In this document: positions 3,106 to 62,684 of the stretch, piece after piece
Position numbering within the stretch: position 1 is the stretch's first letter
Layout of the letters: the number at the start of each line of letters is the position of its first letter
Made by a program: the position numbers and the translations under genes
The notes under the pieces: generated by a model
Seen by the model: the letters and a program-made list of their open reading frames with translations, nothing else
Database searches by the model: none
Told to the model about the DNA's origin: nothing
Source of the DNA: Microbotryomycetes sp. JL201
Taxonomy: Eukaryota; Basidiomycota; Microbotryomycetes
DNA: 64,000 nt
Assembly: GCA_033819885.1 (NCBI GenBank)
Contig: JAQYUZ010000058.1
Location: 1-64,000, forward strand
Direction: 5' to 3'

Positions 3106-4183
3106 ATGGTCAGTTGCCAGGGCGTGCTTGATCGATATGAGCATTCAGCTGACGTACTGTGCTTGCCACCCTTCGCTTGACGCGCAACCGCGTGCTGCTG
3201 TCGCGTGTTTGGTCTCTCCGCAGGGTGTGTCGTTCTCGTCACTGTTTACAAAGCTCTCGGGCCTGTTTTCACGGCAAACGGAAGTGCGGATATTGATGCT
3301 CGGACTCGACTCGGCGTAAGTGCGCGTCTCGGTTGGGTCTCGACCGGCAAAGGCTCGTTCGACGCCGCGCACCTCGACGTCTGACGCGCCGAGCTGGACG
3401 GCGCGTCCGCGGTCGAGCGGCATGTGCTCGAGCTATCACCGAGGTCGTGCCTCTCAGAACTCGTTTCATCAAGGAACCTGTGCAGCATCGAGCGGCCGGC
3501 GCTGCTGGAACTGGCGCTGACTGAGCATCGTTCGCAGTGGCAAGACTACGATCCTGTACCGACTGCAGATCGGTGAAGTCGTAACGACGATTCCTACGAT
3601 CGGCTTCAACGTCGAGACAGTGCAATACAAAAATATAAAGTTTCAGGTCAGCCCGCTTTCGCTGATCCTTTGCGAGGCCCGAGCGCACGACTGACGGCGG
3701 AAACGCTCACAGGTGTGGGATCTAGGAGGCCAGACGTCGATTCGGCCGTATTGGAGATGTTATTATGCAGACACGAAAGCCGTCGTCTATGTCGTCGACA
3801 GCACGGACCGCGAGCGCTTGCCCATCAACAAGGCCGAGCTGCTGGCGATGCTGAGTGAAGACGAGCTGGCCGATGCGAAACTGCTAGTCTTTGCAAACAA
3901 ACAGGCACGTCCCGCTCTGCGCTGTGGAAGTAGGCGCTGAATTAACTTTGCCACGATGAAACAGGACCAGCCCGACGCGATGACAGCCGCAGAAGTTTCA
4001 GAAGGACTTGGACTAGACACGCTCAAGGACCGGCAATGGAGCATTCACAAGAGTTGTGCAATCAAAGGCGAGGGGTTGGAAGAGGGTCTTGACTGGTGAG
4101 TGGGCGCCAGCGAGCCATTCAACCCGTCCTGACGGTTCTCGCCAACTCGCAGGCTTGCAACCGCACTACAAAATAAATCATGA
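3106..4183 (+). CDS. ARL1: ADP-ribosylation factor-like GTPase 1 (Arl1)
   Basis: Six exons: 3106-3108 (only ATG), 3224-3315, 3538-3646, 3713-3904, 3965-4095 and 4153-4183, giving 185 residues, normal for the family. Splicing places Gly2 after the Met, so the protein starts [12 protein letters not shown], an N-myristoylation type amphipathic helix. GTPase motifs are intact: GLDSAGKT (G1), PTIGFN switch I, WDLGGQ (G3), NKQD (G4) and the CAIKGEG region (G5). Arl1 recruits GRIP golgins to the trans-Golgi. The NKQ|DQP junction requires a GC-AG intron at 3905-3964, because the only nearby GT breaks the frame. The best alternative name is another Arf; the NKQD and LFTKLSGLF segments favour Arl1. Confidence 0.93.
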
Positions 4184-4504
4184 TTGAGCAGGTGCCACAA
4201 TCCCTTCACGTCGTGTTGTGGGAACTACTAGAGCTTTGTAGTCTCCGCGCCGTAGGAAGACTTTGCAGCCTCTTCAATGTCGTTCACTTCTTGTTTGCAT
4301 GAATCGTTTCAACTGTAACACAGCACGGCTACATGAGCAATTCGAAAAAGGAGTGAGATTCCGCTGACGACGCGTTGGCCGGATCTTGGCCCTCGTCTAC
4401 ACCATCCCGCCTCGAACAGACCACGCACATACCTACAGCCTGACACTGAGATACGCAACACCCTGTTCGTATCCTTCTGCTGTGACTGTCGACCGTGACG
4501 CACA
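4184..4504. other. intergenic region between ARL1 and RPT3
   Basis: About 320 bases downstream of ARL1 and upstream of RPT3, both on the plus strand. It must hold the ARL1 3' end and the RPT3 promoter. I see no open frame with coding character and no structured RNA. Confidence 0.5.
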
Positions 4505-6193
4505 ATGGACGAGATTGGCATTGACCGTGAGGTGAGCGGGCCCATGCACACCGTGTTCGCACTTGGGAATCAAGTAATTGACGATCAAATCGCTCTATAC
4601 CTCACTGCAGGAACCGACGTTCACGTCCATAGTCGAGGAAAAGGCGACGTTGCTCTCGTCATTGCCGCAGGAAGACTTGTACCTCAAACTCAAGAAACTC
4701 GAACAGCATCTCGAGTTCTTGTCTCTACAGGAAGAGTACATCAAGGATGAGCAAAAGAATCTGAAGCGCGAGCTATTGCGAGCACAGGAAGAGGTCAAGC
4801 GGATCCAGAGCGTGCCGCTCGTCATTGGACAATTTCTCGAGCCGATCGACCAACATACAGGTATTGTTGGGAGTACGACCGGTAGCAATTACGTCGTCAG
4901 AATCTTGTCGACGATCGACAGAGAGCTGCTCAAACCGTCGAGCTCTGTCGCGTTGCACAGACACTCGAATGCGCTTGTAGACGTGTTGCCGCCAGAGGCA
5001 GACAGCAGTATTGCCATGCTTGGATCAGACGAGAAGCCTGATGTGTGCGTATCTTGTCGGGCAACTGCTGTGCCACCAGTAGCTGACGCCCGTCTACTTC
5101 TCGCAACTACAGCACGTACGCCGATATTGGAGGCATGGACGTGCAAAAGCAAGAGATCCGCGAGGCAGTCGAGCTGCCGCTAACTCAATTTGACCTGTAT
5201 CGACAAATCGGTATAGACCCGCCTCGGGGCGTCCTGCTGTATGGGCCTCCAGGTCAGCCACGCTTCCAAGAGGGTCATTACGGTCATTAAAGCTGAAACT
5301 TGGTGTCTCATAGGCACCGGCAAAACAATGCTCGTCAAAGCTGTCGCACATCACACGACAGCGTCCTTCATCCGCGTCGTCGGATCCGAGTTTGTACAAA
5401 AGTACCTTGGCGAAGGCCCGCGCATGGTGCGAGACGTATTTAGGATGGCAAGAGAGAATGCTCCTGCCATCATCTTTATCGACGAGATTGATGCGATCGC
5501 GACCAAGCGTTTCGACGCGCAGACGGGTGCCGATCGCGAGGTGCAACGCATTTTGCTCGAGCTACTGAATCAGATGGACGGCTTTGACCAAGGAAGTAAT
5601 GTCAAGGTCATCATGGCCACCAACAGGGCAGACACGCTCGTGAGTGGCGCACAAGCGAGGCTCTGACTTGATGCTGACCCGTCTTTGAATGCTTCCAGGA
5701 TCCAGCATTGTTGCGACCGGGTCGACTTGATCGCAAGATTGAGTTTCCGAACCCGTCACGCCGTGAGAAGCGCTTGATTTTCCAAACAATCACGAGCAAG
5801 ATGAGCATTGGCGCAGACGTCGACTTGGAAGACTGTTTGTTGCTCTCTTTTTGTTCTCTTTTCATCAATCGAACGCTGATGTGTTGATCGTGTAGATGTG
5901 CAACGGCCCGATAAGCTGTCTTCGGCCGAGATTTCATCCATCTGCCAGGCTGCGGGTCTCCAAGCCGTGCGCAAGAACCGGTGAGCGGGCGATCGAGGAA
6001 GTGTGCGAATGCTGTCAGTGAAACTGACACTTGTGTTGGCGCAGGTACGTCATTTTGCCGGCCGACTTTGAAGAAGCATGGAAGCAAATTGTCAAGCGGT
6101 CAGACGACACGCTCGACTTTTGTAAGTGTTGCAGCCAATTTGGCTCGTCTTGCATGCTTGCTCATGCGCTTGTGCAATGCTGCAGACCGGTAA
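4505..6193 (+). CDS. RPT3: 26S proteasome regulatory ATPase Rpt3 (PSMC4/6B)
   Basis: Eight exons: 4505-4531, 4611-5044, 5113-5252, 5314-5639, 5699-5834, 5896-5980, 6045-6121 and 6186-6193, giving 410 residues. Order of parts: N-terminal coiled coil (about residues 25-75), OB domain, then the AAA+ module with Walker A GPPGTGKT, Walker B IIFIDEID, and the second region of homology containing [19 protein letters not shown]. The last three residues are FYR, a hydrophobic-Tyr-X tail that docks into the 20S alpha-ring pocket; it is completed only by the 8-base last exon. It is one of six ATPases that unfold substrates for the proteasome. All introns use GT-AG. Confidence 0.96.
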
Positions 6194-61064: not shown

Positions 61065-61255
61065 GGCGAGCAGATGTGCGCTCGTATGCGGTGAGAAGGC
61101 GAGCAAGCCGAGTGTGCGTGCGCAGTCGCGGTGGGGCCGAGCAGGCGATGATCGCGCCGTTCATTCTCCTGCACACACGCACTATCGTCGGGCACCGACC
61201 TGCCTCGTCTATCCATATACTACTTCTTCCGTGAAATTTGGTCAGAGATAGCCTG
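61065..61255. promoter_or_regulatory. divergent promoter of ATG44 and the M28 aminopeptidase
   Basis: The 191 bases between two outward-facing starts. Confidence 0.45.
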
Positions 61256-62684
61256 ATGCTGTGCGACCGGCTCAGCGCGCTCGCCATCTCGGCCGTCCTC
61301 GGCGTCGTCAGCGCCAGACCCGTCCAACACGACTCGAACGGCGACAAGCTTGGTCTTGATATCGATCAAGTCCATCATCAAATCCGATTCGGCGCTCCGG
61401 ATGGCATCTCGCTTCCGTCCACGTCGGCCGATCTGATCGCGAGCTTGTTCGAAACGGACGCTTATGCAAATCTGGCCGACCAGGACAAACAATTGATGCA
61501 CCAACATGTCCAGCAATGGCCGCAAAGGCGACTAGTACAACTGTCTCCTACCACAGCGCCTGTCGAAGTCACCGAGGGTCACAAAGCACTCCTGACCTTG
61601 GCCAACTTGCGCTTCACCGACGTCACCGACGATCCGCTTAACCTTGCAGCTGAAAACTATGCGCTCGCCGCTGCCTCTTTCAAAGACGGCAAGACGCCAG
61701 CGACAGGGTTCCCGAAGAAGCTGCAATACTCGGCAAAAGACTTGGACTCGCTCTTCAAAGCCGTTTCGATCGACGACATGAAGACATTCTTGACGCATTT
61801 TACTTCGTTCAGAACGAGGTACTACAAGTCCGAAACTGGCAAGCAGTCGCAACAATTCTTGCTGTCAACGATCAAGAGCATTGTCGAGTCGAACAAGAAA
61901 CTCAACGTTTCGGTCTCGGGCAAGTTTTTCCGCGTCCAGACCCAAAAGAGTTCTCAGACCAGGTGCTTCATATTGATTGTTGTTGCTTGCAGAGTTTACT
62001 CACCCTTGGGGTCAAAATTCAATCATTGTTCGATTCGAACCAGACTCGAAAACTGTCAAGGACGACAAGATTGTCATTCTCGGCGCACATCAAGATTCTA
62101 CAAACCTTTTGCCTTGGTTCGCCGCACCTGGTGCCGATGACGACGGTTCTGGCACGACGACATTGATCACCAGTCTCAAGACGCTCGTCAAACATTCATT
62201 CGTTCCGTCTGACCGTCCGGTCGAGTTCCATTTCTACTCGGCTGAAGAAGGAGGACTATTGGGAAGTCAAGCCGTCGCTCAATCTTATGCGCATCAAGGC
62301 AAACAAGTCAAAGCAATGCTCCAACAAGACATGACGGGCTACGTCAAACAAGGCACTCGACCTACCATTGGCATCATTAGAGATTTCGTCGATGAAGGTT
62401 TGACAGATTTTGTCTCCCTCGTCGTGGATGAATTTGCAGAGATTCCAAGAAAGGATACGAAATGTGGTTACGCTTGTTCTGATCATGCGAGTTGGTCAAA
62501 GATTGGAGCTCCGAGCGCTTTCGCGATCGAAAGTTCGTTTGAAGATTCAAACAAACAGATTCATTCGTCAGGTGATACGATCGACAATCCTGGGTTCTCG
62601 TTCGAGCACGTCAAACAGTTTGTCAGGATCAGTGTCGCTTTGGCGGTTTGTCTTGGAGGCGGAGAGAATGTTCAATTAAATTGA
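61256..62684 (+). CDS. secreted M28 leucine aminopeptidase
   Basis: Two exons, 61256-61919 and 61993-62684, give 451 residues. It begins with a signal peptide (LSALAISAVLGVVSA, cleavage after SA likely) and an activation-type propeptide to about residue 95. The M28 zinc peptidase has all ligands: GAHQDS (His, Asp), APGADDDGSG (bridging Asp), SAEEGGLLGS (catalytic Glu and ligand Glu), QQDMTGY (Asp) and IHSSGDTID (His). A Cys pair (TKCGYACSDH) is the usual disulfide loop. It releases N-terminal residues outside the cell for nitrogen nutrition. The exon junction EFTHPWGQNSIIVRF requires a GC donor (TCGG|GCAAGT) at 61920. Reading on without splicing loses the conserved strand. Confidence 0.93.

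Follow-up and report, generated by a model that had tools for sequence, protein, structure and literature searches.

The 64-kb window analysed here, meaning the whole stretch of 64,000 nucleotides, holds 11 GC-AG introns among 133 by our curated count (8.3%, 95% interval 4.2-14.3%), or about one intron in 12 with a GC donor. We consider it probable that these are genuine introns cut by the ordinary U2-type major spliceosome, and that their frequency in this fungal genome is several times the usual one, although the genome-wide rate is inferred from one 64-kb window. At the sequence level this reading rests on protein continuity together with a GC donor and an AG acceptor, introns of ordinary length and a branch-like motif. 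Some algae are known to have high GC-AG fractions; our literature search gave no such case in a fungus. The introns, which lie in ten genes across the window, are listed with donor junction, acceptor and phase.

3905..3964, + strand: ARL1, CAG/GCACGT...CAG, phase 0
14410..14485, - strand: phenol 2-monooxygenase, GTG/GCAAGT...CAG, phase 0
14264..14320, - strand: phenol 2-monooxygenase, ATG/GCGAGT...CAG, phase 2
17750..17859, - strand: SOF1, right behind the start codon, ATG/GCAAGT...CAG then AAAATCAAG
18801..18871, + strand: GPN3, TCG/GCAAGT...TAG, phase 2
29205..29280, + strand: CNS1 (TPR co-chaperone), TAG/GCGAGT...CAG, phase 1
40004..40071, - strand: THO2, ATA/GCAAGT...CAG, phase 2
54564..54633, - strand: V-ATPase subunit D (VMA8), GAG/GCACGT...TAG, phase 1
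60856..60930, - strand: ATG44 (mitofissin), AAA/GCACGT...CAG, phase 0
61920..61992, + strand: leucine aminopeptidase, CGG/GCAAGT...CAG, phase 1
63293..63372, - strand: DUF3425 gene, ACG/GCAAGT...CAG, phase 1

The nine GC donors proposed by an earlier sequence-only reading are all present, and each reads GCAAGT, GCGAGT or GCACGT as it had described; the VMA8 and DUF3425 introns were absent from its list. Its claim that the protein is continuous only, or best, with a GC donor was borne out: the conserved protein demands GC at eight of its nine junctions, with SOF1 well but less absolutely supported. Among all 11 introns, frame and conserved protein together demand the GC donor and AG acceptor in 10. 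Homologues with solved structures span nine of the junctions. The joined peptide is contiguous in Arl1 (1moz), in Cns1 (NRAACNLEL/GNY, 6hft), in THO complex subunit 2 (L/YYKQQKFNL, 7apk) and in the ATG44 homologue 7ydo (GIK/RSTG; Pfam Mitofissin, 98.2 bits). It matches GPN-loop GTPase 3 (DVDR/FLDPD, 9t5j_C) and aligns without gaps to 6zep in the aminopeptidase (VSVS/EFTHPW) and to 1pn0 at phenol 2-monooxygenase donor 14320, while RVDR at donor 14485 is retained in both 1pn0 and 1foh. Every boundary pair that keeps the frame and avoids a stop was scored, whatever its dinucleotides, and GC-AG gave the best protein alignment at eight of these nine junctions. It was the single top score without ties for THO2 (1262 pairs), and was equalled only by slides of that intron for ARL1 (2091), phenol 2-monooxygenase 14485 (2890) and 14320 (1412), GPN3 (2785), CNS1 (2383), ATG44 (2387) and the aminopeptidase (2241). 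At VMA8 (homologue 3j9t), 114 of 2253 pairs, none of them GT-AG, scored up to 9 points above GC-AG, which is thus not the unique optimum there, probably because loop length varies. The best GT-AG pair fell 12 to 61 points below GC-AG at all nine junctions, the largest deficit being that at VMA8. The DUF3425 gene, with its junction included, scores 49.6 bits against Pfam DUF3425, the best stretch spanning the junction, and 29.7 bits without the upstream exon.

SOF1 is a separate case. Its start, M-K-[I/V]-K, recurs in all four sequences listed, yeast Sof1 accounting for two, and the GC intron offers the sole combination of ATG and donor with G at +5 that yields M/KIKT. The rival model is an intronless extension of 22 residues.

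The same reading had counted six junctions without a GT alternative that would preserve the frame. Our test kept the acceptor constant and sought donors within 45 bases at nine junctions (VMA8 included, SOF1 left out). Five of them offered no GT that is in frame and free of stops, and the remaining four (ARL1, one phenol monooxygenase intron, THO2 and the aminopeptidase) had six such alternatives between them. None of the six carries G at +5, a base found in 121 of the 122 accepted GT donors.

Permissive gene modelling can inflate the GC-AG rate: in the nematode Heterorhabditis bacteriophora, re-annotation lowered it from 8.9% to 0.8%. The nine scored junctions already speak against such an artefact here, since the protein is continuous across them, and the behaviour of a gene finder built for this analysis, and blind to the positions proposed earlier, argues in the same direction. 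It called six of the nine previously proposed introns at first and eight after self-training, and newly called donors 54633 (VMA8, already before self-training) and 63372 (DUF3425, after self-training, 6.0 nats), both of which are supported. The SOF1 intron was not called by this program even after self-training. Allowing GC donors raised its score by 57.9 nats, compared with 0 to 28.8 nats for each of the other 14 dinucleotides, and once GC was allowed these decoys brought little gain (0 to 4.7 nats). Upon retraining with a decoy and GC together, decoys took 0 to 2 introns and GC 12 to 14, with totals of 2214.6 to 2249.7; when a decoy replaced GC, it gained between 0 and 8 introns and the total never exceeded 2171.5. 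The retrained runs are a weaker control than the earlier ones, because retraining leaves their totals without strict comparability. In favour of an artefact, two of the finder's 12 GC calls were unsupported: 34102, in the low-complexity tail of THO2, and 53622, in the formin N-terminus, were rejected because the frame is open without an intron. The bias of GC donors at +3 and +6, described below, was not part of the scoring; the finder's donor matrix in fact scored A at +3 lower than C and G, and therefore did not create the +3 bias. Altogether, we regard a modelling artefact as very improbable. A candidate twelfth GC donor in HBS1 (42499, GCAAGG) stands outside the eleven, because 42 combinations of GT or GC donor, with G at +5, and acceptor join the two halves in frame.

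For the curated count, introns at 14243 and 17864 (GT) and at 34102 and 53622 (GC) were removed, and those at 57001 and 18036 (GT) and 17859 (GC) were put in. The remaining weak GT introns were retained, including 12976 and 12652, where the model probably joined two genes, so the denominator of 133 is approximate. The finder's acceptors are wrong for two retained introns, those with donors 17965 and 23145. When only gene-finder introns above 2 nats are counted, the figure is 10 GC of 122.

Published rates for fungi are much lower: the fungal average is 1.009% (PMC7072748), and values of 1.85% and 1.7% are given for Ganoderma lingzhi (PMC11590231) and Trichoderma longibrachiatum (PMC4324775). 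The large excess over fungal rates asserted earlier thus stands for this window. Fungal GC-AG introns likewise combine a GC donor with an AG acceptor in protein-coding genes, and it is their share that is far higher here. The probability of at least 11 in 133, for one window and uncorrected for the number of windows read, is 1.3e-7 at a rate of 1.009%, 4.1e-5 at 1.85% and 0.007 at 3.5%. These figures, together with the spread of the introns over ten genes, make it quite improbable that real introns have merely clustered by chance in a genome with an ordinary rate of 1-2%; on the other side, the count comes from 11 events in a single window picked beforehand by a reader who may have read many.

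The GC donors differ from the GT donors in the bases beside the variable letter. A occupies +3 in 9 of 11 GC donors vs 25 of 122 GT donors (Fisher p 7e-5; 8 of 10, p 2e-4, if SOF1 is set aside), T occupies +6 in 11 of 11 vs 74 of 122 (p 0.007), and none of the 42 donors with a pyrimidine at +3 has C at +2. The GC donors comprise six GCAAGT, three GCACGT and two GCGAGT, and the GT donors include 19 GTGAGT, 20 GTCAGT and only six GTAAGT. By context, the GC share is 6/12 for GYAAGT (5 GC and 6 GT without SOF1), 3/9 for GYACGT, 2/21 for GYGAGT and 0/20 for GYCAGT. Elsewhere in the donor, GC sites match the consensus at a mean of 4.9 of 7 positions vs 3.8 of 7 for GT sites (one-sided p 2e-4). This pattern suggests that the splicing machinery tolerates an odd +2 letter when the remaining signal is good. 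Sequencing or assembly errors, or strain polymorphism, that turned T into C would neither strike donor +2 eleven times nor favour donors in which +3 is A and +6 is T, and we find this explanation barely credible.

In the reading that we favour, C at +2 would mismatch normal U1 snRNA, and the mismatch would be tolerated only beside strong pairs, namely G at +5, T at +6 and a purine, A in most cases, at +3. Where the context is so strong, T and C are about equally frequent at +2, as though drift from one to the other carried almost no cost. Alternatively, C might be paired with or accepted directly, either by a U1 snRNA that has acquired G opposite +2 or by a modified U1C. This would yield many GC donors, and C at +3 in 35 of 122 GT donors hints at unusual donor reading. 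However, a C-pairing U1 should need no compensation, yet the GC donors are the better matched ones, and the purine at +3 and the T at +6 that they carry lean against such a variant; moreover, two algae with 22% and 40% GC-AG have the usual putative U1 5′ end (PMC3033335). The window itself contains no match to a U1 gene at the Rfam gathering threshold. We consider a variant of this kind rather improbable. A more specific possibility, in our view also unlikely, is that this lineage is nearly blind to U vs C at +2 in well-pairing donors, with GC and GT drifting freely there (6 to 6 in GYAAGT) and weak donors keeping GT; the altered component would then be a proofreading factor such as U1C or Prp8, not U1 RNA.

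In their length and their lack of a U12-type donor the introns are consistent with U2-type splicing. GC introns are 57-110 bases long, with a median of 73 vs 66 for GT introns (a comparison of medians). The U12-type donor consensus is ATATCC (PMC3033335), and TATCC occurs in none of the 11 GC donors. The best branch motif within 50 bases of the acceptor is CTGAC in four, CTCAY in two, and CTGAA, CTAAC, CTTAC, TTGAT and TTAAT in one each, the last being that of SOF1 and the lowest-scoring of the eleven; any sequence, however, yields some best motif. Within predicted exons, GCAAGT is not avoided (17 observed, 12.0 expected) and GTRAGT is (1 vs 5.8, p 0.02), a contrast that would point to weaker GC than GT donors, but GTCAGT, the commonest GT donor in the window, also shows no avoidance (11 vs 7.9), leaving the comparison ambiguous. 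Because a review has linked GC donors to alternative splicing in mammals, some of these introns might serve regulation through retention or alternative splicing. A retained intron would change the frame at six of the nine junctions tested and hit a stop at three, so that the retained form would not yield full protein, and we think regulated splicing unlikely.

The earlier comparison covered fungi only; algae reach 7.7-39.6% GC-AG, with 39.6% in Aureococcus anophagefferens, 22.2% in Micromonas pusilla and 7.7% in Chlorella sp. (PMC3033335). Among 61 species these three rank highest in genomic G+C (69.5% in A. anophagefferens and 65.9% in M. pusilla; PMC3033335). They share with our window a high GC-AG fraction without known cause, but the window is fungal and its G+C is 54.7%. 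Cyst nematodes (3.46% in Globodera rostochiensis; PMC4901422) likewise combine a raised rate with a strong flanking consensus at GC donors, but their GT and GC donors share CAGG[T/C]AAGT, whereas here GTGAGT and GTCAGT each exceed GTAAGT and the GC donors differ. Among basidiomycetous yeasts, the bglA gene is also intron-rich, with introns of about 60 bases, and has one GC-AG intron of 21 in Rhodotorula minuta and one of 18 in Hamamotoa singularis, vs none of 16 and none of six in two others (PMC9142197), although these are single genes only. In the fungus-like Phytophthora sojae, 3.4% of introns are non-canonical, GC-AG and CT-AC taken together (PMC7072748). Our literature search found no fungus above 1.85% GC-AG, an absence that is unproven since per-species supplement tables and most subscription papers lay outside its scope. 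Searches for relatives of individual genes gave none for SOF1 in the viral contigs searched, none for GPN3 in the genome contigs searched, and one distant Arf-like locus (L001, 43% identity) for ARL1.

The build-up of GC-AG introns in some lineages was termed an enigma by the survey that reported the algal cases (PMC3033335). A fungus with about 8% GC-AG introns and moderate G+C would help to part an effect of base composition from one of the splicing machinery; fungi are in many cases open to manipulation. Gene predictors that bar GC donors would break or lose genes in such DNA: restricted to GT, our gene finder split ARL1 and THO2, dropped a GPN3 exon and lost ATG44.

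GC-AG introns are firmly in excess within this window, which has 64,000 bases at 54.7% G+C without N and carries 3.3 introns per kb of coding sequence. The sequence-only reading had named nine GC donors and held that such introns are unusually common here. When both strands were read, all nine proved to be GC donors whose next four bases on the coding strand are AAGT, GAGT or ACGT, and the excess was borne out by a curated set of 122 GT and 11 GC introns, a GC share of 8.3% (exact 95% interval 4.2-14.3%) against fungal rates of 1.009-1.85%. The published figures are a fungal mean of 1.009% (PMC7072748), 1.7% in Trichoderma longibrachiatum (PMC4324775) and 1.85% in Ganoderma lingzhi (PMC11590231); among the 61 introns counted in the bglA genes of four basidiomycetous yeasts, two are not GT-AG (PMC9142197). 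For one 64-kb window taken alone, the probability of at least 11 GC introns is 1.3e-7 at a rate of 1.009%, 4.1e-5 at 1.85% and 0.007 at 3.5%; the nematode Globodera rostochiensis has 3.46% (PMC4901422). In the literature searched, no fungus with a rate like that of the window was found. A 61-species survey lists 39.6% for Aureococcus anophagefferens, 22.2% for Micromonas pusilla and 7.7% for a Chlorella, ties these fractions partly to high G+C and terms their origin an enigma (PMC3033335).

Re-annotation brought the rate reported for Heterorhabditis bacteriophora down from 8.9% to 0.8% (PMC5906903), and for this reason decoy-donor and boundary controls were run. We wrote a two-strand gene finder with coding, donor, acceptor, branch-site and length models, and trained it on the window itself for three rounds with GT donors only and three with GC allowed at 1%. 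When one further donor dinucleotide was admitted at a 2% prior, GC improved the fit by 57.9 nats (7 introns), and the gain from the other 14 dinucleotides ranged from 0 to 28.8 nats; together these took 22 introns, 10 of them sharing an acceptor with a GC intron. Once GC was already permitted, these others added 0 to 4.7 nats. After more self-training the gene finder called 122 GT and 12 GC introns, and at equal parameters the score was 2143.5 for GT alone versus 2224.7 for GT plus GC. When each donor was forbidden in turn, 112 GT introns and 10 GC introns proved to be worth over 2 nats, and all 10 of these GC introns have homology support. The curated set consists of the gene-finder introns minus four, plus three.

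Without GC donors the gene finder lost the mitofissin gene ATG44 (60706-61064, minus strand; 74 residues; Pfam 98.2 bits), a member of a fungal family. Among the genes of the window it is the chief mark of a fungus, and the intron density may point to a basidiomycete. Homologues of solved structure bridge the junctions of ARL1, phenol 2-monooxygenase (both), GPN3, CNS1, THO2, ATG44 and the aminopeptidase; a V-ATPase subunit D homologue of solved structure also aligns over the VMA8 junction, although the two proteins differ in length by three residues shortly ahead of that point. These PDB chains are identified by molecule name. For these nine junctions, all donors within 45 bases and acceptors within 60 bases of the claimed ones were paired regardless of dinucleotide, the in-frame, stop-free pairs were kept (1262 to 2890 per junction), and the products were each aligned to one homologue.

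Best GT-AG pair at each junction, in points below the GC-AG boundary (donor position in brackets)
ARL1 (3905): 25 points below
Phenol monooxygenase a (donors of a and b at 14320 and 14485): 12 points below
Phenol monooxygenase b: 27 points below
GPN3 (18801): 44 points below
CNS1 (29205): 16 points below
THO2 (40071): 29 points below
VMA8, V-ATPase subunit D (54633): 61 points below
ATG44 (60930): 21 points below
Aminopeptidase (61920): 15 points below

The GC-AG boundary scored highest at eight of the nine, tied only by slides of the same intron. At VMA8, 114 pairs outscored it by up to 9 points, none of them GT-AG. Retention of the intron would break the frame at six junctions and meet a stop at three; with the claimed acceptor fixed, in-frame GT donors exist at four of the nine, none with G at +5.

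In SOF1 the GC intron (17859) directly follows the ATG, and the predicted product begins MKIKTLHRN. The rival is an intronless start with 22 extra residues, the form that the gene finder prefers. The M-K-[I/V]-K start is present in all four sequences listed, and SOF1 has no other ATG plus GT or GC donor with G at +5 that yields M|KIKT. For the DUF3425 gene (63372), the GC-intron model scores 49.6 bits, its matched stretch crossing the junction, versus 29.7 bits for a model without the upstream exon. Taken together, the eleven GC-AG introns are very probably real, and the excess is likely to extend genome-wide, as predicted from this sequence.

Position +3 of the 122 GT donors is G in 55, C in 35, A in 25 and T in 7, and their hexamers are led by GTCAGT (20) and GTGAGT (19), versus just 6 GTAAGT; so frequent a C at +3 and the dominance of these two hexamers appear unusual. 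At +3 the GC donors have A (nine) or G (two), and every one of the 11 has T at +6; the GC share is 9/34 with A at +3, 2/57 with G and 0/42 with C or T, and 6/12 in GYAAGT. Omitting SOF1, or restricting the set to introns above 2 nats, leaves the +3 contrast at p 2e-4 and GYAAGT at 5 GC versus 6 GT in either case. Both GC donors outside the sequence-only list, those of VMA8 and the DUF3425 gene, combine A at +3 with T at +6, and the gene finder's donor matrix scored A at +3 lower than C and G. Against synonymous shuffles, predicted coding sequence contains GTRAGT once versus 5.8 expected (p 0.02), a deficit to be read with the gene finder's proneness to call introns at GTRAGT, and GCAAGT 17 times versus 12.0. 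By itself this would mean that GCAAGT does not act as a strong donor, but GTCAGT, the commonest GT donor, shows no avoidance either (11 times versus 7.9).

In the donor-U1 pairing scheme, C at +2 mismatches normal U1. Such a mismatch may be made up by neighbouring pairs and would then be tolerated in otherwise strong donors; A or G at +3 with T at +6 is the pattern expected of this compensation, and the donor-context data fit it. A variant U1 pairing with C at +2 would also admit GC donors, but it would not require strong neighbouring positions, which the GC donors nonetheless have. The 61-species survey quotes the U1 5′ end as AUACUUACCUG and finds the putative U1 5′ end to be the usual one in A. 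anophagefferens and M. pusilla (PMC3033335). The 64-kb window contains no Rfam match at the gathering threshold. A tolerated +2 mismatch is the reading we infer.

Introns directly after the ATG occur in ARL1 (3109), SOF1 (17859) and HBS1 (41010). In GPN3 (17965-18114, plus strand) the start codon is apparently split by an intron and completed by the 6-base microexon TGCGCT; A|TGCGCT|AC gives MRYAVLVTGP, which agrees with GPN-loop GTPase 3 from the arginine onward. HBS1 (41007-44803, plus strand) has its N-terminal domain and GTPase split over two neighbouring models, for which 42499 GCAAGG is one candidate joining donor; the first model closes, before its stop, with a motif that resembles a SKI7-type short form. 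A distant Arf-like protein, 43% identical to ARL1, is encoded at locus L001 on a 58 kb IMG/VR contig.
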